Source: Clostridiaceae bacterium (GTDB lineage Bacteria > Bacillota > Clostridia > Lachnospirales > Lachnospiraceae). From it: a stretch of 54,422 nucleotides of DNA. Where the stretch lies: contig CAJTGF010000034.1 in the NCBI GenBank assembly GCA_910575585.1, forward strand, positions 1 to 54,422, read 5' to 3'. This document shows, piece by piece, positions 7,381 through 53,775 of this stretch (position 1 is its first letter; each line of letters starts with the position of its first letter). Below the pieces are notes generated by a model that saw nothing but the letters and a program-made list of their open reading frames with translations, was not told the DNA's origin and did not search any database. The position numbers were made by a program, and so were the translations under genes.

Positions 7381-8004
7381 TTAGTCCCCACACTCCACTT
7401 TCAAATCAGAAATAAATGCCTCTGTTCCGATATCCACAAAGATTCCCACAGAACCGTGCTGCCCAACACCATGCTTCATGTTAGCAACCACAAGTGTCGG
7501 TTGTTTCTCTCCATTAAGGTAAAACTCTGCCCGCTCATTTTCTATAACAGCCTTTAATGTGATCCACTCATTAAGAGCGATATTTACCGGTGCCTCATAG
7601 TCTGTGATACCATGTTCCCGAAAATAATTGAACGTGTAGCCCGGATAGGAAAAATACTGACAGCCATGGGATTTTCTCACCGGATCCGCACAATCCCGTC
7701 CATTAGTCGGCCTTACATAAAAAGATTCAAATTCGCAGTCCGCCTCATTAGCCCTATAGACAATCCCTATAAATCCTCTGGCAAAATCCGGCGCATCGGG
7801 CAAAAGGCGGCTGAGCATCTTTACCTCTATTATCCCGTTATGGAATGAAAGGCCATTTACTTTTGCGTAAGTATTCTCGTCAAATTCATTGATTTTCTCT
7901 TTTTTAACGACACGCAGAACTGGTATTCCATCTAATACTGCATCCTCTGCAGATGTGTGTATCGCCGTAAAATTTCCTGTCATTAATTTAATCTGTCGTT
8001 TCAT
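7381..8004 (-). CDS. Concanavalin A-like (LamG/DUF1080-type) domain protein
   Basis: A 207-residue protein without signal peptide. The pattern of short beta-strands, with FHNGIIEVKMLSRLLPDAPD, FARGFIGIVYRAN, EFESFYVRPTNGR and WITLKAVIENERAEFYLNGE, is that of single-domain jelly-roll proteins that bind or cleave glycans. I see no obvious catalytic acid pair, so the call stops at the fold. The ATG at 8004 follows GGAGGAG with six-base spacing; the ATG five codons earlier does not. It stands alone between the PTS remnant and the sirtuin remnant. Confidence 0.6.
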   Translation of the reverse strand: MKRQIKLMTGNFTAIHTSAEDAVLDGIPVLRVVKKEKINEFDENTYAKVNGLSFHNGIIEVKMLSRLLPDAPDFARGFIGIVYRANEADCEFESFYVRPTNGRDCADPVRKSHGCQYFSYPGYTFNYFREHGITDYEAPVNIALNEWITLKAVIENERAEFYLNGEKQPTLVVANMKHGVGQHGSVGIFVDIGTEAFISDLKVECGD

Positions 8005-8140
8005 GCTTTGCTCCTCCAAATTTTCCTAAATACTATACTCTGCTTTTTAAATTTATTCTTCCCAGAATTTTCCGGCATTGTGAATCGGCGGCATTTTTCA
8101 ATGCTGGCCGTGCCATGGATTCCATATATCGCGCATAATG

Positions 8141-8515
8141 TCACCTCAAATCAGCAAGCACTGTTCCAATATCCCCATCAATGCAAATGGACCGTGTCTC
8201 GGTTTCTTTCGGACAGACCGCCTCGCCGTAATTGACACAGGCATAGACAGCACTCGGATTTTTAGCTGTCATCTGCCAGAACGGATATTTAATAATACCC
8301 GGGGTGTTGTAGCCTACGCCAAGTTCCAAAAACAGGATCCTCTGATTTTTCCTTGCCCGCAGGAAATTCTCGTATCGCTCTGCCGCCAGATGCCAGCCTT
8401 CGTCCTCTACAAATCTATCATCCGAACGCAGATTCATTGTCAGCGTTTTTCCACATTTCGGACATTTGGGAATCAGCCGTATCACAAAAGGCCGCCGTTT
8501 TCTACGACCTTTCTT
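8141..8515 (-). pseudogene. Sir2-family (sirtuin) C-terminal fragment
   Basis: The second half of a sirtuin: the first half of the zinc site PKCPKCGKTLTMNLR, then FVEDEGWHLAAERYENFL, the NAD-contacting strand LFLELGVGYNTPGIIKYPFW and the tail SICIDGDIGTVLADLR. The N-terminal Rossmann half with GAGIS and the catalytic histidine is missing. The break lies close to the left end of repeat R1 copy A at 8516, with a short basic, unplaceable segment between. This resembles the macrodomain-associated or related Firmicutes sirtuins; no macrodomain partner is present. Confidence 0.75.
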
Positions 8516-8913
8516 CCTAACCCGGATAAACCGGAACTTTAAATTCGTTATGTTGCTGGATTGTTGAGTGAGCAATGGGCAGGGATTGTCGTGAGGCCAG
8601 TCAGAGGAGAGCTGTCCCGTCCGGGTTCAGATATGCCGGACATTCCGATGAGCCCAAAACGGAAAACACTCGGGGTGAGGCCCTCCTGTTTTCCTGGTCT
8701 CATCTCCATGGCATAGATTCACCCTGCCGGGACAGCTCTCCTCTGCCTGGCAAAACCAGAATTCGCTGGCTAAGGTTTGCTCACTTAAGGTGGTTTCGTC
8801 AGGGGACGCTGCTTCAACTTTACAGCGTAAAAACAGCTTCTTTTTATGGCCTCAAGTATCTTGTTGAGTAAGGTTAAGGCGATGTTGTTGGGAACATGAA
8901 AGGATCTGCCGCC
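8516..8913 (+). repeat. R1 structured repeat, copy A
   Basis: A ~398-base repeat closely similar to 10959-11354. It folds into one long interrupted hairpin. Outer helix: 8564-8575 with 8777-8788 (one G·U-type pair). Long helix: 8596-8619 with 8728-8751 (24 positions, one mismatch). Inner helices are GGGT/ACCC, ATGCC/GGCAT and GATGAG/CTCATC; the apical helix is 8661-8668 with 8687-8694. A separate hairpin CCAGAATTCGCTGG lies at 8756-8769, and ACGCTG/CAGCGT at 8806-8828. It has no coding potential. Its left edge adjoins the broken sirtuin gene. Confidence 0.8.
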
Positions 8914-8977
8914 TTGCAATTGCAGGCAATAGCAAGATTCCGTTGTTCCGCTAAGTGGTATGTCCGGATTTTTATGT

Positions 8978-9145
8978 ACTAGTATAACCCGTTTTAAATA
9001 ACCTTCCGTTTCACCAGTCTGCTTTCCCGATAGCACAGAGGGAAAATGCTCAACGCAGCCCCACTACGCCTCCGCTTTTCCCTCTGCACTCTCGGAAAAG
9101 TATCCTTGCCGAAACAGAAAGGTATTTAAAACGGGTTATACTAGT
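8978..9145. repeat. P3 palindromic element (MITE-like)
   Basis: A 168-base imperfect palindrome. The terminal arms at 8978-9000 and 9123-9145 are perfect inverted copies of 23 bases (ACTAGTATAACCCG... outward). Inside, CAGAGGGAAAA (9036-9046) pairs with TTTTCCCTCTG (9076-9086). Its right end supplies the TAG stop codon of the neighbouring gene at 9141. It is the only copy in the window and carries no gene, which fits a miniature inverted-repeat element or a long hairpin. Confidence 0.75.
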
Positions 9146-9971
9146 GAGTCTCTTCCCAAAGGTAAACCTCCATATCTACCGCCCCCAGGTCACGCTCCAT
9201 GCAATAACACCGATACAGTAAAGAAGCGTCCTCCCATGCCAGGGAAGAATCCTCCTGCAAGAGAACCATCAAGCGGGTTTTCTCCAGTTTCGCCCATGCT
9301 TCCTCTCGAGTACAGTGTTCCGCTCCCGCAAGAAGAAATTCCACAAATTTTCTGACCGGAGAATTCATGGCAAACTCCAAGTGGGGGATTTTCTTTGGCG
9401 GATTCTGTTTCAGCCGTTCCGCTGCTTTTTGCCGCAGCGCCTCACGTTGGGGATAAAGCACATAATTGGATAAATAGTTATCATCGTTCAGCAAACGCTC
9501 ATCCCACACATCCTCATCATTCCAAGACCCCATGTAGACCACACGGCCATTTTTTATCAGGCAGTGTAACCCCTCATCCTCCTGCCAGTCGCAGCTGCCG
9601 CTAAGATTCAACACAGGGGTTCCCGGCTCCCTTGGAACCTTGATGTCCAGGCTGCCAAACTCCATATACCGAAGAACCTCCAACGGCTCCCGGATGTGCT
9701 GTATATCTTCGTCCAACAGTTCTCCCTTGCTTGTAGATTCCAACTCATCCTGAAGGTAATACAGCGCGTATTGGCAGATTTCCCTTACCAGAGCTTCATC
9801 TACCTCTGCCAGCCAGCCAATAGACCGGGCCGCGTACTCCGCGGTAACACCCTCATCACAAATCACCTCAATCTGTTTGTGAAAATAAGGGAATTCTGCA
9901 TAACCTGTCACCCTGTCAAACTCATCTGTCCCGACATTTATTAAAATGTCCTCAAAGCGCAGTTCTGACAT
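9141..9971 (-). CDS. Hypothetical protein, DUF6985-like
   Basis: A 276-residue acidic soluble protein. Near residue 130 the sequence LNLSGSCDWQEDEGLHCLIK followed by GRVVYMGSWNDEDVW resembles the W/D-x-E-x-GL pattern of DUF6985 proteins, which include putative immunity proteins; this is family recall, not proof. The ATG at 9971 follows AAGGAGG. The final codons are Glu-Thr-His followed by a TAG lying within the terminal repeat of P3, so the original C-terminus may have been replaced. It sits in the 2-kb cargo between R1 copies A and B. Confidence 0.55.
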   Translation of the reverse strand: MSELRFEDILINVGTDEFDRVTGYAEFPYFHKQIEVICDEGVTAEYAARSIGWLAEVDEALVREICQYALYYLQDELESTSKGELLDEDIQHIREPLEVLRYMEFGSLDIKVPREPGTPVLNLSGSCDWQEDEGLHCLIKNGRVVYMGSWNDEDVWDERLLNDDNYLSNYVLYPQREALRQKAAERLKQNPPKKIPHLEFAMNSPVRKFVEFLLAGAEHCTREEAWAKLEKTRLMVLLQEDSSLAWEDASLLYRCYCMERDLGAVDMEVYLWEETH

Positions 9972-10023
9972 ATGTAACTTCCTCCTTGGGAATTTCGATG
10001 ACCAATGGCTTCTTTTCTTTCAT
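9952..10023 (-). CDS. Possible 23-residue upstream peptide
   Basis: A tiny frame, MKEKKPLVIEIPKEEVTYVR plus three residues, starts after a strong GGAGGAGGA site and overlaps the start of the downstream gene by 20 bases. The downstream ribosome-binding site (AAGGAGG) lies within its codons. It could be a coupling leader peptide, or the residue of a larger upstream gene. Evidence is the site and overlap only. Confidence 0.3.
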   Translation of the reverse strand: MKEKKPLVIEIPKEEVTYVRTAL

Positions 10024-10240
10024 TTTGGCTCCTCCTCCTAAATAAAAATTTCTTCGATGCTCATACCAAATTTTCAAATCAGCTTTGGGAGACAAAGACT
10101 GCTCTATCTCATTTACAGGAAAAAAACTGTTCCGCATTTAAAGTGGTATAGACTTCAACATATTTTTTAGACCATAACATTGCGCCCTCTCCCTTCCTGA
10201 CAAAATAGGAACCATTTTCGTTCTGTCATAATTATATAAA

Positions 10241-10723
10241 TCATTCATCTGATGCGCCACTCTCATTTGCCGTATCTTCGTATTCCACCATCCCCGCACT
10301 GCTTTTTAATACCTCTTCCGTCGCAAAAACCCACCATCCGTCATTTATATGAATTTCGATCAAACCATCGGATATTCCATATTGGTATTCATAGCCTGTT
10401 CCAAAGTTTGATTGATCATCCTCTTTCGGCTGTTCGCTTTGGTCAACTTCCGAAGTGATTTTCCCGTCTGTCAGAGCATCCCTGTCTTTTGCCGAAACCT
10501 CATACCCTGTATCCATGTATAATTTCCCATCTATCATGACCATGGGAATCAAATCATATTTTTCCTGCCCGTATGATTGGTCAGTCTGAGATTTTGCAGC
10601 TTCCTCCACTGCCTTTGCGGTCTCCCCTTCCGTATCTCACCCGCTTTTCTGTTTTCCGCATGCACACAGCATGATTGAAACAAGACCACATACACAAATC
10701 CCTCTGTATAATATCTTTTTCAT
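10241..10723 (-). pseudogene. Lipoprotein gene interrupted by an in-frame TGA
   Basis: Reading from ATG 10723 (good GGGAGGA site) gives a lipoprotein signal peptide, MKKILYRGICVCGLVSIMLC followed by AC, with lipobox LCAC. Codon 29 is TGA (10639-10637). The same frame then continues for about 130 codons (DTEGETAKAVEEAAKSQTDQ..., YDLIPMVMIDGKLYMDTGYE, IEIHINDGWWVFATEEVL) to a normal stop. Thus a ~160-residue secreted lipoprotein of unknown function has been split by one nonsense change. A GTG at 10609 could restart translation, but without a signal peptide. Confidence 0.7.
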
Positions 10724-10958
10724 TTTATCCTCCCATAAAAACACGTTTTCTCAGGCATAAAAATCATCATTTAAATTGCCGGATAAATTCCAAATTGTAT
10801 CTTTAATTATAAAACAGTCGTCTGCCATTTGCAATGTATATTACTGTTCACAGCCAATGTTGGTTATGCACCGACAGAGACGCAACAGCCTCCGACAGAA
10901 TCCAGACCACCGTAGTCTCCATGACCAGCCGCTCATTCACGACTTTCCCGCTGCTGCT

Positions 10959-11354
10959 CCTAACCCGGATAAACCGGAACTTTAAATTTGTTATGTTGCT
11001 GTATTGTTGAGTGAGCAATGGGCGGGGATTGTCGTGAGGCCAGTCAGAGGAGAGCTGTCCCGTCCGGGTTCAGATATGCCGGACATTCCGATGAGCCCAA
11101 AGCGGAAAACACTCGGGGTGAGGCCCTCCTGTTTTCCTGGTCTCATCTCCATGGCATAGATTCACCCTGCCGGGACAGCTCTCCTCTGCCTGGCAAAACC
11201 AGAATTCGCTGGCTAAGGTTTGCTCACTTAAGGCGGTTTCGGCAGGGGACGCTGCCTCAACTTTGCAGCGAAAAATAGCTTCTTTTTATGGCCTCAAGTA
11301 TATTATTGAGTAAGGTTAAGGCGATGTTGCTGCAAACCTGAAAGATCTGCCGCC
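10959..11354 (+). repeat. R1 structured repeat, copy B
   Basis: Direct repeat of copy A over its whole length, from CCTAACCCGG to TCTGCCGCC, differing at scattered bases, mostly in loops and the 3' part. The long stem is identical to copy A. The differences TTACAGCG to TTGCAGCG and AAAACGG to AAAGCGG keep the neighbouring hairpins plausible. Copies A and B flank a 2-kb segment carrying P3, the DUF6985-like gene and the lipoprotein remnant, and could recombine to delete it. Confidence 0.8.
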
Positions 11355-11377
11355 AAAGCAGTTATCTTTTCACTACA

Positions 11378-11660
11378 GAGTCGAAACAGCGTTCCCTATC
11401 GAAACCACCTTAAGTGAGCAAATCCCGGCCAGCGGATTCTGCTTTTGCCCGGGAGGGAAGGCAGGCTGTGTGCCGGGCGGGTGAATCTATGCCATGGAGA
11501 TGAGACCAGGGAACCAGGAGGGACTAACCCCTCCTGGTTCCCGTTGTGGGCTCATCGGAATGTCTGGCATATCTGAACCCGAACGGCACACAGCCTGCCT
11601 TCCCTCCCGGGCCTCACGACAATCCCCGCCCATTGCTCACTCAACAATCCAGCAATTCCA
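11378..11660 (-). repeat. R1 structured repeat, copy C (inverted, divergent stems)
   Basis: Read on the minus strand this copy shares with A and B the conserved blocks GAGTGAGCAATGGGC, GGGTTCAGATATGCC, CATTCCGATGAGCCCA, CTCATCTCCATGGCATAGAT and GCTCACTTAAGGTGGTTTCG. Its long stem (11447-11475 with 11584-11612) is 29 fully paired bases of largely different sequence. Its apical stem (11509-11522 with 11529-11542) is 14 fully paired bases where A has eight. Conserved junctions with rewritten but complementary stems are strong evidence for selection on the fold. Confidence 0.8.
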
Positions 11661-11859
11661 TTATTTTACCATTTTGCGCAAGATATCGTTCTTAAGTGTC
11701 TAAAGAAAAAGACATAAGCCATATTCCCGCCAATCTCCATCCCCTGCCCCACGGGTGTTAAGATCCGCTCCTACGGGATCCTCAACGCTGCATTACCGCC
11801 CCAGGCTCCATCGTGAACCTGCCATAACTCCCCATTGCCTGCTTAAAAGATCACATAAA

Positions 11860-11909
11860 AGCCACGGTTCCTACTCCATTTCAGGGCGTAAACCGTGGCT
11901 GTCTTATTT
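11860..11909 (+). terminator. Hairpin upstream of pncB, possible terminator
   Basis: AGCCACGGTT (11860-11869) pairs perfectly with AACCGTGGCT (11891-11900) around a 21-base loop and is followed by GTCTTATTT. It may end readthrough from upstream on the plus strand; the long loop and broken T-run make it moderate. It lies before the pncB promoter. Confidence 0.45.
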
Positions 11910-11950
11910 CCCAATACACAAATGTTTTCGTTATTTTATTAACATTCTCT

Positions 11951-11978
11951 TTGTATTTCCCCCATTCTGTGTTATACT
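11951..11978 (+). promoter_or_regulatory. Probable promoter of pncB
   Basis: TTGTAT at 11951 and TATACT at 11973 are 16 bases apart, with TG just before the -10 region, giving a sigma-A type promoter. It lies about 105 bases before the pncB start. No NiaR-type operator was recognised. Confidence 0.5.
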
Positions 11979-12084
11979 CTCTCTAATTACCAGCGCAGCC
12001 AACTACCTGGTTTCCGGAATCCGGCAGCACCCAAAAAGCCTGTTTCCGGCAACCGCGTCCGCTGCCATCACCAGGAGGATACTT

Positions 12085-13545
12085 ATGGAAAAGAGAAATC
12101 TCACCCTGCTTACGGATCTGTATGAGCTGACCATGATGCAGGGCTATTTCAAAGAAAAAGACGCCAATGAAACCGTGATCTTCGACGCTTTCTACCGCAG
12201 CAACCCCAACAACAACGGCTACTCCATCTGCGCAGGCTTGGAGCAGGCCATTGACTACATCAAAAATCTCCACTTTGACCAGAAAGATATCGACTATCTT
12301 CGCTCCACCGGGCTTTTTGGGGAAGATTTTCTGGACTATTTAAAACAGTTCCATTTTTCCGGGGACATTTACGCCATTCCGGAAGGCACGGTGGTATTTC
12401 CCAGAGAACCTTTGGTAAAAGTCATCGCGCCCATTATGGAGGCCCAGCTGGTGGAAACGGCCCTTCTAAACATCATCAACCACCAGAGCCTTATCGCCAC
12501 CAAGACGGCCAGAGTCATCTACGCTGCCCAGGGGGACGGGGTCATGGAATTTGGACTCCGCCGGGCTCAGGGACCCGACGCCGGGATCTACGGGGCCAGG
12601 GCCGCCATGATCGCAGGCTGTATCGGCACCTCCAACGTTCTGGCAGGCCAGATGTTCGATGTACCCATAAAAGGAACCCATGCCCACAGCTGGATCATGA
12701 GCTTCCCCGACGAGCTCACCGCTTTCCGCACCTACGCCAAGCTGTACCCCACAGCCTGCATCCTTCTGGTGGACACCTACGACACCCTAAAATCCGGCGT
12801 TCCCCACGCCATCCAGGTATTTAAAGAAATGCGCGAGGCCGGCATCCCTCTGACCTTCTACGGCATCCGCCTAGACAGCGGCGATCTGGCCTATCTGTCG
12901 AAAAAAGCCAAAGGGATGCTGGACGCGGCAGGATTTGGCGATGCCGTCATCTCCGCCTCCAATGACCTGGATGAAAACCTTATCAGCAGCTTAAAACTCC
13001 AGGGCGCTGCCATTAACTCCTGGGGCGTAGGCACCAATCTCATAACCTCCAAAGACTGCCCGTCCTTCGGCGGCGTTTACAAGCTGGCCGCCATTATGGA
13101 TAAGACCACGGGAACCTTTATCCCCAAGATCAAAGTCTCGGAGAACGCGGAAAAGATCACCTATCCGGGCAACAAGACCATCCGCCGCATCTACAATAAA
13201 AATACGGGCAAGATCATCGCCGATCTGATCTGCCTGGTTGAGGAAGAATATGACTCCAAAAATTCCCTGCTGCTCTTTGACCCTGTGGAAACCTGGAAAA
13301 AGACCCACCTTGCCCCGGACAGCTATACCATCCGGGAACTGATGATCCCGGTATTCCTTGGAGGGAACTGTGTCTATGAGTCGCCCAAGGTCATGGATAT
13401 CCAGAAATATTGCCGACAGGAGCTGTCTACCTTGTGGGAGGAATCTCTCCGCCTGGAATATCCCCACCGCACACACGTAGACCTGTCCCTGCCTCTGTGG
13501 AAGATGAGAAATGAGCTGCTGGATCAGTATCATTTCAACCGTTAA
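12085..13545 (+). CDS. pncB: Nicotinate phosphoribosyltransferase
   Basis: A 486-residue enzyme making nicotinate mononucleotide from nicotinate and PRPP, the salvage entry to NAD. Visible family blocks are LLTDLYELTMMQGYFKE at the N-terminus, the catalytic-His region GTHAHSWIMSFPDELTAFRT, the RRAQGPDAG loop, YGIRLDSGDLAYLSKKA and SWGVGTNLITSKDCPSFGGV. This is the full length for the Firmicutes type. The ATG at 12085 follows AGGAGG at six bases; the longer upstream open frame has no homology and includes the promoter. The gene appears monocistronic, with a hairpin about 175 bases downstream. Confidence 0.95.
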   Translation: MEKRNLTLLTDLYELTMMQGYFKEKDANETVIFDAFYRSNPNNNGYSICAGLEQAIDYIKNLHFDQKDIDYLRSTGLFGEDFLDYLKQFHFSGDIYAIPEGTVVFPREPLVKVIAPIMEAQLVETALLNIINHQSLIATKTARVIYAAQGDGVMEFGLRRAQGPDAGIYGARAAMIAGCIGTSNVLAGQMFDVPIKGTHAHSWIMSFPDELTAFRTYAKLYPTACILLVDTYDTLKSGVPHAIQVFKEMREAGIPLTFYGIRLDSGDLAYLSKKAKGMLDAAGFGDAVISASNDLDENLISSLKLQGAAINSWGVGTNLITSKDCPSFGGVYKLAAIMDKTTGTFIPKIKVSENAEKITYPGNKTIRRIYNKNTGKIIADLICLVEEEYDSKNSLLLFDPVETWKKTHLAPDSYTIRELMIPVFLGGNCVYESPKVMDIQKYCRQELSTLWEESLRLEYPHRTHVDLSLPLWKMRNELLDQYHFNR

Positions 13546-13877
13546 GCAGCCAGCGGGCAAAAGGCAAAAAATACGCCCTATGAGCGTTCATAATTTGTTA
13601 ACAAATCTTTCACAACCCTTTTACAACCGCGATAAATTTTCTTCATATTCGGGGGGTATACTTTAACCATCAAAAGACAAGAGCTGCTTACATTTTGATA
13701 AGATTTTTTTCATAATCCGCCGGTCGGCCCTCTGGGGTCTGACCGGCTCCTCCCTTTTATGGGATTCTGTCATCTGATCATTATCCGTCCCCTATCCCCA
13801 AAAACTGAGCCTCACAAATTTTTTTCCACATAAAGTCCTTCGTTTATGCACATACTTCTCAGAGTATGATCTTGATG
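13546..13877. other. Non-coding region after pncB
   Basis: No gene seen. It contains the palindrome TTTGTTAACAAA near 13596, a TATACT at 13657 without a convincing -35, and pairing segments ATCAAAA/TTTTGAT ahead of the hairpin at 13719-13747. A short untranslated RNA is possible but unsupported beyond these motifs. The right side adjoins P2 copy 1. Confidence 0.35.
13719..13747 (+). terminator. Hairpin, likely pncB terminator
   Basis: GCCGGTC (13719-13725) pairs with GACCGGC (13741-13747), with further pairing potential in the loop (GGCCC/GGGGTC), followed by a pyrimidine run CTCCTCCCTTTTAT. This is a plausible but not classical intrinsic terminator. Confidence 0.45.
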
Positions 13878-14048
13878 ATGTATTTCCGGAGTCTTTTTGC
13901 GCCTGATTTTGTGAGATGATTTTTTGTCAGATGCGCATAAATTTATGAGCCATACGTGGAACGTACGTTAATTAAATTTATGTGCATATGACGGAAAATC
14001 AGCCAATCTGCCACAAAGGCAGGTGCAGGAGAAATTCCGAGAGTACAT
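13878..14048. repeat. P2 palindromic element, copy 1
   Basis: A ~170-base imperfect full-length palindrome. Ends ATGTATTTCCGGAGTC and ATTCCGAGAGTACAT are inverted; the inner part has TGTCAGATGCGCAT against ATGTGCATATGACG, and a centre TACGTGGAACGTA. Similar copies lie at 25169-25331 and (inverted) 47417-47579. This copy ends 22 bases before the start of the SpoVAF-like gene, so it would form the leader of that message. Confidence 0.75.
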
Positions 14049-25129: not shown

Positions 25130-25168
25130 GGTTCAAGGAAGATTTTAAGTTCCGCAAGAAGAAAAATT

Positions 25169-25331
25169 ATGTACTCTCGGAGTCTCTTTGTGCCTGATTT
25201 TTCGAGATGATTTTTTGTCAGATGTGCATCAATTTATGAGGCGTACGTGGAACGTACGTTGATTAAATTTAGGTGCATATGACGGAAAATCATCCACACA
25301 GGCAGGTGCAAGAGAGATTCCGAGCATACAT
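25169..25331. repeat. P2 palindromic element, copy 2
   Basis: Same orientation as copy 1. Ends ATGTACTCTCGGAGTCTCT and AGAGATTCCGAGCATACAT are inverted; inner parts TGTCAGATGTGCAT and ATGTGCATATGACG-like blocks flank a GCGTACGTGGAACGTACGT centre, itself a short palindrome. It lies between the terminator and the end of the 1010-residue gene. Confidence 0.75.
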
Positions 25332-25540
25332 AAATTATAGGAAGCAGGGCCGTGTCCATCCACGGGCCTTCCATGTCAGCCGCATGCCTGATCCTCACCG
25401 CGCTTCCGCCCGGTCTGTCCTGTTTCACCGCCAAGTTTCTTCCGGTGAAACAGGAGAACCGGGAAAGACTGTCTCGCGTCTATCATATGGAAAACTGGCG
25501 ACTCTGCATAGGCCGCTATGGCGATAACTCCTCCAATCCC

Positions 25541-29503: not shown

Positions 29504-30358
29504 ATGGAGATACGAAAACGAAAGGGAAAGCAGGTGAGAAGATTGACAGTGACGGAACAGATCGACCAGAAACATCAGGAAGATTTACAAAGGCTAAGAG
29601 GCTTTCGCCTGCTTGATGATGATTTCCTCACAAAGTGTTTTGAGGGAGATACGGCAAGCATAGAACTGGTATTACAGATTGTTCTGGAAAAGCCGGATTT
29701 AAAGGTTTTGGACGTCCGCACCCAGGTATTTGTGGAGAACCTGCTGAACCGTTCGGTAAGGCTGGATATCCTGGCTACGGACAGCACAGGGGCAAAACTG
29801 AATGTAGAAGTACAGCGCTCCGACAAAGGAGCCGGTAGAAAAAGAGCCAGGTACAACAGCAGCATGATGGACGCAAACCTTTTGAAAAAAGGCGAGGACT
29901 TCGACAAGCTGCCGGAAACGTGGGTAATCTTTATCACAGAGAATGACGTAATGGAAAAAGGATTGCCGCTCTATCCGATTGAGCGGTGTTTTTTAGGAAC
30001 TGGGGAAAGATTTGAGGACGGTTCGCACATACTGTATGTAAATGGCGCTTACCGTGGAGATACGCCAATCGGGAAGTTAATGCATGACTTCTCCTGCACA
30101 GACGCGGCAGATATGTATTATACGACACTGGCAGACAGAGTTCGTTTTTTCAAGGAAAGTAAGGAGGGCATTTTAATCATGTGCAAAGTCATGGAGGATA
30201 TGAGAAAAGAATCTTTACAAGAGGGCATAAAAGAAGGGGCAATAAATACTGCTAAAAGAATGCTGACAGATGGAATATTGACACTTGAAAAAATTGCGGA
30301 ATATGCAGGACTTCCACTTGACGAAGTGAAAAAACTGAAAGCAGAACGGACAGCATAG
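29504..30358 (+). CDS. Rpn-family recombination-promoting nuclease / putative transposase
   Basis: 284 residues of the PD-(D/E)xK nuclease family. The core is visible: NRSVRLDILATDSTGAKLNV with EVQRSD following (Asp and the E-x-Q nuclease pair), ARYNSSMMDANLLKKGEDFD and TWVIFITENDVMEKGLPLY. The C-terminal helix region EGIKEGAINTAKRMLTDGIL is typical. Relatives in E. coli stimulate RecA-independent recombination; many Lachnospiraceae carry dozens of copies. The ATG at 29504 follows AGGAGG at about 11 bases; a TTG near 29540 after AGGTGAG is an alternative. GGCCGGGA-type inverted repeats lie on both sides (29453-29478 and the terminator). Confidence 0.85.
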   Translation: MEIRKRKGKQVRRLTVTEQIDQKHQEDLQRLRGFRLLDDDFLTKCFEGDTASIELVLQIVLEKPDLKVLDVRTQVFVENLLNRSVRLDILATDSTGAKLNVEVQRSDKGAGRKRARYNSSMMDANLLKKGEDFDKLPETWVIFITENDVMEKGLPLYPIERCFLGTGERFEDGSHILYVNGAYRGDTPIGKLMHDFSCTDAADMYYTTLADRVRFFKESKEGILIMCKVMEDMRKESLQEGIKEGAINTAKRMLTDGILTLEKIAEYAGLPLDEVKKLKAERTA

Positions 30359-46252: not shown

Positions 46253-47413
46253 ATGACTTACCCAAAACTGCCCGGTCTTACCTGGGACGGCGCCGTTTAC
46301 GAAAATGACGAGATGGGAACCCTGGAGGCTCTGCTGCCCACCGGCGGCTACCCCACTGCCCATGCTCCCGCTATGGTGGAGCTGCCAGACGGCGATCTGC
46401 TGTGCTGCTGGTTTGCCGGCACCTATGAAGGAAGCGCCGACATCCGTATCATCTGTTCCTGTCTGCCAAAGGACGGCACAGCCTGGCTGCCGCCGGTAGA
46501 TATCTCCGGCGACGATACCCGCAGCGAGCAGAACCCCTCCCTCTTTTACGGGCCGGACGGCGCGGTGTGGGCAATGTACACCGCTCAGCTGGACCGTCAG
46601 CCAGGCAAAGATAATATGCAGTACACCGCCGTGGTGCGCTGTCAGAAAAGCACGGACGGCGGAAAAACCTGGGGACCCTATGAGACCGTATTTGCCGAGG
46701 AAGGCACGTTCTGCCGCCAGCCCATCCAGGTGCTCTCCAACGGGCGTTGGATCTTTGCCAACTGGCTCTGTACCGACTCCGCGGACGGTCTTTCCGGTGA
46801 TCCCACTGCCCTGCGCATCTCCGACGACCAGGGCAAAAGCTGGCTCAAGGTCATGATGCCCGCAAGCAACGGCCACGTCCACGCCAATGTGGTGGAACTG
46901 GAACCGGGACATCTGGCAGCCTTTATGCGCAACCGGGAGGCATACCGCATTCACCGCAGCGAGTCCTTTGACTGGGGCGAGACCTGGACCGAACCCGCGC
47001 CCACTCCTCTGCCCAACAACAACTCAAGCATCAGCGCCCTGAAGCTGAAAAGCGGCCGGATCGCCATTGCCTATAACCCAACCTGCACCCCGGATCCCAA
47101 GCCCGGCAAAGCGGCCTGGCCCGGCCTGCGCTGTCCGGTGGCTGTGGCTCTGTCAGAGGACGGCGGCCTTACTTTCCCCATCATCCGCTGGATGGAGCGG
47201 GGCGAAGGCTACATGGGCGAAGAAAACAAGACCAACAACAAGCAGTACGAGTACCCCTACCTTATGCAGAGCCGGGACGGTATGCTGCATCTTGCTTACG
47301 CCGCCCGTACCCGTCAGGGCATCAAATATGTCCGTTTCAGCGAGGAAGACGTCCTGGGCGCGAAACGGGAGAAGGTAGGTCTGTACAATCCCACCGCGGC
47401 CCAGAGCCGATAA
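46253..47413 (+). CDS. BNR/sialidase-fold protein, substrate unknown
   Basis: 386 residues without signal peptide, so cytoplasmic. A six-bladed propeller of the BNR_2 (sialidase) type is indicated by Asp-box repeats STDGGKTWGP, SDDQGKSW, SFDWGETW and SEDGGLTFP, with HAPAMVELPDGDLLCCWFAG at the first blade and EYPYLMQSRDGMLHLAYAAR at the last. BNR_2 proteins include sialidases but also lyases and other enzymes on acidic sugars, so hydrolysis of sialic acid is not implied; no NanA/NanE/NanK genes are near. It would act on an imported oligomer or a sugar-acid conjugate before the aldolase and kinase steps. ATG follows AGGAGG. Confidence 0.75.
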   Translation: MTYPKLPGLTWDGAVYENDEMGTLEALLPTGGYPTAHAPAMVELPDGDLLCCWFAGTYEGSADIRIICSCLPKDGTAWLPPVDISGDDTRSEQNPSLFYGPDGAVWAMYTAQLDRQPGKDNMQYTAVVRCQKSTDGGKTWGPYETVFAEEGTFCRQPIQVLSNGRWIFANWLCTDSADGLSGDPTALRISDDQGKSWLKVMMPASNGHVHANVVELEPGHLAAFMRNREAYRIHRSESFDWGETWTEPAPTPLPNNNSSISALKLKSGRIAIAYNPTCTPDPKPGKAAWPGLRCPVAVALSEDGGLTFPIIRWMERGEGYMGEENKTNNKQYEYPYLMQSRDGMLHLAYAARTRQGIKYVRFSEEDVLGAKREKVGLYNPTAAQSR

Positions 47414-47416
47414 AAA

Positions 47417-47579
47417 ATGTACTCTCGGAATCTCTCCTGCACCTGCCTTTGTGGATGATTTTCCGCCATATGCACATAAATTTAATCAACGTACGTTCCA
47501 CGTACGCCTCATAAATTTATGCACATCTGACAAAAAATCATCTCACAAAATCAGGCACAAAGAGACTCCGAGAGTACAT
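47417..47579. repeat. P2 palindromic element, copy 3 (inverted)
   Basis: The reverse orientation of copies 1 and 2, with ATGTACTCTCGGAATCTCT and AGACTCCGAGAGTACAT ends and the centre ACGTACGTTCCACGTACGC. It fills nearly the whole gap between the sialidase-fold gene (stop 47413) and the alcohol dehydrogenase start (47607). As RNA it would form a ~160-base hairpin within the operon transcript. Confidence 0.8.
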
Positions 47580-47606
47580 AAAAAATATAAGGAGGATCTG
47601 ATCACA

Positions 47607-53613: not shown

Positions 53614-53775
53614 AGAACGTGTTTGAAAATTGCTTTCTGACAGATGCGCGTCACAATTTGTGGAAGATTTGAACCAAATGAGGGGCGCATAGCGGGCTAT
53701 GTAACCTGAATTTGACTCAAATATACCGCAAAGCGGGACGCGCATCTGGCGGGAATGAATTTTCAAACACGCTCT
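53614..53775. repeat. P4 palindromic element
   Basis: A 162-base imperfect palindrome: AGAACGTGTTTGAAAA (53614-53629) against TTTTCAAACACGCTCT (53760-53775), 15 of 16 matched, and CAGATGCGCGTC (53641-53652) against GACGCGCATCTG (53737-53748), perfect. The middle (ATTTGAACCAAAT and ATTTGACTCAAAT) is also paired loosely. One copy in the window; similar CAAACACGCTC ends are, from memory, common in Lachnospiraceae genomes. Confidence 0.7.

Follow-up and report, generated by a model that had tools for sequence, protein, structure and literature searches.

Given that a dispersed repeat in a clostridial genome keeps its stems paired while their sequences are exchanged between copies, the locus raises the question of whether selection acts on the fold and, if so, whether the folded strand is RNA or DNA. 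The repeat, here called R1, lies on contig CAJTGF010000034.1 of the Clostridiaceae bacterium assembly GCA_910575585.1 (family Lachnospiraceae in GTDB), all 54,422 nucleotides of which were analysed and are referred to as the window. The original prediction, made from the letters alone, had described three copies (A, B and C), had proposed selection on a fold with conserved unpaired segments, and had left three options for the element: a structured non-coding RNA, an RNA-based mobile element, or mobile hairpin DNA. Of these, mobile hairpin DNA fits best, whereas the preference for RNA drawn from G·T changes was not supported. We lean towards R1 being a non-coding mobile DNA repeat of Lachnospiraceae of the miniature inverted-repeat transposable element (MITE) type, that is, a long palindrome with a conserved structured tip at its centre, moved via its outer ends and with the tip kept for its folded strand.

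The evidence for a selected fold comes from the tip. Read in the GGA sense and from the outside inward, it comprises a stem ending in approximately GCC, the letters ATGGA, a six-pair stem, ACC, an upper hairpin (absent in some copies), GGG, the partner of the six-pair stem, GGAATG, a short bulge starting with G, and GGC. The six-pair stem varies widely between copies, with forms such as GATGAG/CTCATC, GCTGAG/CTCAGC, GCCAAG/CTTGGC, GAAGAG/CTCTTC, GTTGAA/TTCAAC and ATTCTG/CAGAAT, and it contains a mismatch in some copies (e.g. GAGGAG/CTCATC in 5 of 175). A covariance model, also named R1, was built from a seed of 34 diverse tips. There had been 38 cluster representatives, of which L222 was deliberately reserved for testing from outside the seed, and L002 and two L079 tips were not included. 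Both sides had changed in 23 of the 28 pairs of this seed, a value reached by none of 500 shuffles. The same was true of 27 of the 28 pairs in 26 distinct rows from outside the seed (again 0 of 500 shuffles), some of which are near-duplicates and some of which may derive from genomes that also gave seed rows. Many copies with non-complementary stems, the observation that the original prediction had named as contrary to itself, were looked for in both sets: standard pairs occupy 95.5% of the 918 pair cells in the 34 tips, compared with 73.4% in shuffles and 34.9-44.4% when the partners are slid, and 94.1% of 676 cells pair in the 26 further rows.

Unpaired letters are conserved as well. The seed was picked by letter patterns, so that its invariant loops are partly invariant by construction, and the rows found by the model provide the fairer test of the loops. 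Among 27 rows outside the seed (duplicates included, gaps aside), G16, A18, G133 and A135 are each fixed in 26 of 26, A25 and G125 in 27 of 27, and G138 in 25 of 26. A 3x3 loop, in which GNA faces GNA, has near-fixed outer letters and middle letters that vary in the model-found rows; an A facing a G and the first G of the bulge are also near-fixed. For the tip, the covariation in both sets of rows and these fixed loop letters give strong support to the proposal of a selected fold with conserved unpaired segments, and the covarying pairs and conserved letters together point to some role of the folded strand.

The tip is spread widely within one bacterial family. Copy A as a DNA query gave 104 matches in its own genome, where the stretches examined hold at least 86 non-overlapping tips, and matched 9 of 41 genomes (its own included), all of the same genus. 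The letter pattern of the tip occurs in at least 82 stretches of a GTDB-based collection, and 76 of the 80 rows listed are titled Hungatella, Eisenbergiella, Butyrivibrio, Lachnospira or Lachnospiraceae. Among the four listed rows titled outside Lachnospiraceae, three (L199, L203 and L208) had no model match and were taken as chance; the fourth, L222 from an unclassified bacterium, matches the model at 43.4 bits without having been in the seed. Model matches were found in 26 of 397 sampled Lachnospiraceae genomes (23 of 334 genera), in 4 of 246 genomes of an order-level sample (all Lachnospiraceae), and in 1 of 398 genomes of a phylum-level sample (the genome of the window); these are lower bounds, since in the family, order and phylum runs the filters were stricter and scoring was confined to 10 or 16 candidates in each genome. 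A finer model run on five other genomes identified 44, 28, 28, 7 and 4 tips. No match was found in plasmids or phages and none by pattern in viral contigs, and a plasmid or phage origin was rejected on these grounds.

Within the window, the presence and positions of copies A, B and C were confirmed, and the conserved junction and loop blocks are present. The 24-position stem described for A and B has 23 of its 24 positions paired, copy B carrying the identical stem, and the 29-bp stem of largely different sequence described for copy C pairs at 29 of 29. The limits of the element had been drawn incompletely: B and C are not independent copies, being the left and right modules, in opposite orientation, of one 745-bp unit that recurs in the genome, and A lacks the right half. 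The features are as follows.

8516..8902, + strand: copy A, with left end CCTAACCCGGATAAACCGG and left hairpin module, without the right module (98% match to 10958-11257 over 300 bp and 91% over a further 74 bp; other copies have the same left end).
8596..8751, no strand assigned: copy A stem, 8596-8619 with 8728-8751, plus all between (23 of 24 positions pair).
8624..8722, - strand: conserved hairpin tip of copy A (model R1, 99.4 bits).
10959..11703, + strand: full 745-bp doublet (copies B and C), comprising left end, left module, spacer, inverted right module and right end, with CTAA at 10960-10963 and 11700-11703 (from length and aligned ends; the unit recurs).
11067..11165, - strand: conserved hairpin tip of copy B (model R1, 99.2 bits).
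11447..11612, no strand assigned: copy C stem, 11447-11475 with 11584-11612, plus all between (29 of 29 positions pair).
11481..11579, + strand: conserved hairpin tip of copy C (model R1, 94.9 bits).

Elsewhere, the copy L140 is a deletion chimera in which an A-type arm is joined to a C-type arm. In folding predictions, the module of copy A folds better than shuffles (z -7.9 on the + strand and -6.8 on the - strand, 200 shuffles each), as does the 745-bp unit (z -29 and -32 on the two strands, 20 shuffles each), which admits two alternative folds, a single long hairpin or two hairpins. Taken alone, the 117-base tip of copy A exceeds shuffles only by a small margin (z -1.9 and -2.7 as RNA, -3.4 and -2.1 as DNA), and the longer-stemmed tip of copy C folds strongly better than its shuffles.

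Evidence for movement was found in the sequences that surround the tip. In backbone A (genomes G007 and G022), the tip lies inside an element whose ends read approximately TAGGYAWTTGCG and whose length is 214-217 bp, or 273-275 bp for six copies. When copies lacking the tip are counted too, 24 of 44 have perfect flank repeats of 9-12 bp; mispaired flanks gave a mean of 0.03. In backbone B (CE91-St56), it lies inside near-perfect palindromes of about 258 bp with ends ACTCAAACTTCGCAG; perfect flank repeats of at least 4 bp were present in 16 of 19 copies, tip-less ones included, 14 of them being 5 bp long (mispaired flanks: mean 2.0, maximum 6). One tip sits in backbones with different ends and duplication lengths. 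Terminal inverted repeats are present in both of these backbones; in the genome of the window, where the ends read CTAACCCGG... and ...GGGTCTAA, the arms pair and the outermost stretches of the two ends differ. In that genome both ends of the doublet could be placed for 16 copies, of which 12 are flanked by CTAA on either side, the search letters having included CTAA. In addition, L142 is a copy nested in the tip of another copy, and its flanks, joined with one (C/T)TAA, match an uninterrupted sibling tip but for two letters (compared by eye). The 745-bp doublet therefore probably duplicates the 4 bp CTAA. Tip-less copies occur in both sibling backbones, measuring 65 bp in 10 of the 11 read in G007 (102 bp in one) and 30-88 bp in five read in CE91-St56, and look like deletions of the palindrome centre. 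We read R1 as a mobile element of MITE type because of the target duplications in the two sibling backbones, the nested insertion and the many scattered copies.

One complete doublet copy (L029, 1178-1923) lies inside an open reading frame that is open on both sides. An intron-like element was considered for this copy and dropped, since the locus resembled an interrupted gene and no spliced frame was demonstrated.

The competing explanation that survives best is that the tip works as RNA, as a structured transcript segment (a leader element or a small RNA) bound by a host protein and carried by mobile DNA, which we regard as a tentative possibility. Covariation and purine-rich 3x3 loops are what such an RNA would display; sheared G-A pairs in GXA loops are known for RNA and single-stranded DNA alike. 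The G·T changes that had been taken to favour RNA gave little further help: in the arms outside the tip (227 copies, 8718 aligned columns) there is no strand preference, with 138 G-U against 136 A-C cells and 108 against 101 distinct contexts. Of the 5646 cells of the tip, Watson-Crick pairs make up 94.0%, G-U 1.6% and A-C 0.6%, and the distinct contexts, 54 for G-U against 33 for A-C (p = 0.03; no difference from the arms by Fisher, p = 0.12), show a weak excess that speaks for RNA. The seed and the outside set together hold 25 G-U and 11 A-C. A strand preference of the tip is no more than suggested by these counts. Wobble pairs are rare in it, at a rate below that of 13 tRNA acceptor stems (5 of 91 cells), a very small yardstick.

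The placement of backbone A also bears on an RNA role. It lies in 5′ leaders, with a Shine-Dalgarno sequence and start codon within 60 nt in 23 of 32 copies, compared with 15.4% of 7200 random positions in the same stretches when both sides of the position are considered, and in 20 of these 23 leader copies the Shine-Dalgarno sequence begins 15-19 nt from the element end. However, in 18 of the 23 leaders it is the reverse complement of the tip that would be present in the message, and in only 5 the tip sense. Likewise against an RNA, the element at one site in two genomes of one genus (L275 and L276, around 1450-1640) has its tip inverted between flanks that are 96-97% identical; this site adjoins a Shine-Dalgarno sequence between substrate-binding-type and permease-type genes (named by eye from translations). 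Placement belongs to the backbone, because tip-less copies show the same placement (7 of 11, at 16-17 nt) and the other two backbones do not: a Shine-Dalgarno sequence within 80 nt was found in 5 of 14 copies from CE91-St56 and E. tayi, at scattered distances and with one end not located in three copies, and one was found in 6 of 23 copies in the genome of the window, again at scattered distances. Placement as a property of the tip was rejected accordingly. The TAGG-ended MITE of G007 and G022 (L062-L081, L165-L179, L320-L330) keeps a near-fixed distance to the gene with or without the tip, as if the Shine-Dalgarno sequence were part of its target. A replication-strand bias of the tip is not claimed: CE91-St56 has 28 of 44 against 16 with the origin assumed at base 1, but the complete genome G272 shows the opposite, 10 of 28 (hand tally).

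Transcription from within the copies gained no support either, as 5 promoter-like sites were found in 8000-12100 of the window (5.0 expected) and none of them lies inside a copy. The original statement that no named RNA family could be recognised holds as far as tested, with no Rfam match at the gathering threshold in the window. The best Rfam match on L191 was MIR8622 (121 bits with 197 needed; E 1e-23 on both strands of the long hairpin), and the best on L275 was RUF4 (22.9 bits against a gathering threshold of 55; E 0.017); both being below gathering, the former was taken as a generic long-hairpin match and the latter as chance. DNA was placed ahead of RNA because the tip is inverted between two genomes at one site, its orientation in leaders is mixed, the arms are symmetric and wobbles are rare. 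We thus favour selection on a folded single strand that is more likely DNA than RNA, the step from RNA to DNA being a weak one.

In the MITE-type explanation, movement would depend on transposases whose genes lie elsewhere and which recognise the outer ends of the copies and not the tip. The folded strand of the tip, most likely a DNA hairpin, would be exposed when the palindrome extrudes or replicates, and it may be bound by a factor common to these hosts or may shield the palindrome from such a factor. The 745-bp form in the window would be a doublet of two such hairpins in divergent orientation. A more specific possibility, offered with reserve, treats the tip as a module in its own right: a structure-specific nucleic acid cap which several MITE backbones, with different modes of movement, would have taken up because its folded strand is recognised by a Lachnospiraceae factor. 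With such a cap, for example, long palindromes could evade nucleases that cut hairpins, or could attract the machinery of replication or transposition.

Genes of the PD-(D/E)XK transposase type (Rpn) are located at 29504-30358 of the window, at C1:315461, C17:72912 and C145:3039 of G000, and at 875370 of CE91-St56. Those outside the window are within about 300 bp of an R1-type element (coordinates compared by eye), and in CE91-St56 an Rpn-like gene (PF04754, 19.6 bits with a cut-off of 21) adjoins a single element end. An Rpn-type nuclease (PF04754 / PF12784 / TIGR01784) is not claimed as the mobilising enzyme, as the cases are too few and were chosen after the fact.

A different mode of movement, in which inverted hairpin doublets resembling REPINs travel as single-stranded DNA by means of a Y1/HUH transposase that recognises the tip, appears unlikely. 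It would account for the orientation of neighbouring tips, since divergence was found for 44 of the 51 pairs of distinct tips less than 1.3 kb apart (33 of 34 in the genome of the window, where many are copies of one unit, and 11 of 17 elsewhere), and for all 6 pairs less than 1.2 kb apart in the five genomes of the finer model run (in G272, G359 and G231; by eye). The two alternative folds of the doublet also agree with it, and REPINs are described, in the parts of the report drawn on here, with the same two folds and compensatory changes (PMC3116915). On the other hand, many copies of the tip are single, 6 of the 17 pairs outside the genome of the window are not divergent, and the nearest tip pairs of CE91-St56, 1.4 and 1.6 kb apart, are not divergent (by eye). 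Nor would Y1 chemistry be expected to leave target duplications of 9-12 and about 5 bp.

Arm comparisons bear on whether the palindromes are simply neutral. The median identity of an arm to its own partner compared with arms of other copies is 0.81 against 0.66 in CE91-St56 (own arm best in 11 of 15), 0.73 against 0.58 in the genome of the window (16 of 64), and 0.71 against 0.71 in G007/G022 (1 of 34). That stems stay paired only through the copying of one arm from the other in replication (palindrome correction), with no function of the fold, is very improbable: the arms lack strand bias and co-vary within copies in CE91-St56 and less so in the genome of the window, as it would predict, but own arms in G007/G022 match no better than those of other copies, and the conserved mismatched loops, which correction should likewise remove, are retained across genera.

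Several points weigh against the explanation we prefer, that of a MITE-type DNA repeat with a tip kept for its folded strand. The choice of the seed by letter patterns inflates loop conservation within it, and the two L079 tips left out are degenerate ones; the outside rows were fitted to the structure of the model, which favours pairing. The doublet in the genome of the window shows no visible variable target duplication, and its 4-bp duplication rests mainly on the one nested insertion. The existence of copies without a tip may indicate that the tip is dispensable, or they may merely have lost it after insertion. Backbones A and B have a short ACTCAAA...CTT in common near their ends, and may be related by common descent of these ends despite their differing duplication lengths. 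The excess of G-U contexts in the tip weakens the step from RNA to DNA, and purine loops are common in RNA too. Finally, no transposase with matching ends was seen among the matches listed, with several genomes incomplete and end pairs judged by eye.

The window contains further repeats. A 168-bp palindromic element at 8978-9145, separate from R1, has 35-nt arms that are 91% complementary and ends ACTAGTATAACCCG; no relation to R1 was seen. Another dispersed repeat occurs in three copies (13869-14048, 25166-25341 and 47407-47588), the first directly before the Shine-Dalgarno sequence and start of a GerA-type spore germination gene. At 53614-53775 is another long palindrome, with 80-nt arms 2 nt apart that are 75% complementary.

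Among known systems, prokaryotic MITEs as reviewed in the sections drawn on here are similarly short, non-coding and dispersed, with inverted-repeat ends, target duplications and stable folds (PMC10969869), whereas R1 has a covarying, letter-specific tip common to backbones of differing duplication lengths. That review covers stable folds and RNase III processing, and the terms compensatory, covariation and Clostridi are absent from its main text; its account of Correia (NEMIS) and ERIC elements describes them as palindromic and intergenic, like R1, with some processed as RNA (PMC10969869). The BOX, RUP and SPRITE repeats of pneumococcus resemble R1, by description and not by sequence, in being modular and dispersed with stable predicted RNA folds, and the terms compensatory and covaria are absent from the text of that paper as accessed (PMC3049150). 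REPINs and bacterial interspersed mosaic elements (BIMEs), in the same parts of the report cited above, share with R1 the inverted doublets that are regular in the genome of the window and less so elsewhere, the two alternative folds and the compensatory changes (PMC3116915). R1 differs from both in its hosts and in the target duplications of the sibling backbones. Its modules are also far longer than repetitive extragenic palindromic (REP) sequences. Correia (NEMIS) and ERIC elements differ from R1 in hosts, ends and targets, and we know of no conserved covarying tip in either. No description of R1 was found in the open-licence PMC literature on MITEs and their folds, structured RNA, insertion near Shine-Dalgarno sequences, or palindromes and SbcCD (titles and abstract starts, among the matches listed), and one may be in print elsewhere.

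Such strong covariation together with fixed unpaired letters normally marks a functional RNA, and here it occurs in the middle of palindromes of mobile DNA, across many genera of a single family and in backbones that differ in duplication length. If the RNA explanation is true, the tip would represent a sizeable family missed by the Rfam searches made. If it is true that a folded DNA strand is selected, the tip would be a rare, widely conserved structured DNA motif and would offer a handle on how bacteria tolerate long palindromes.

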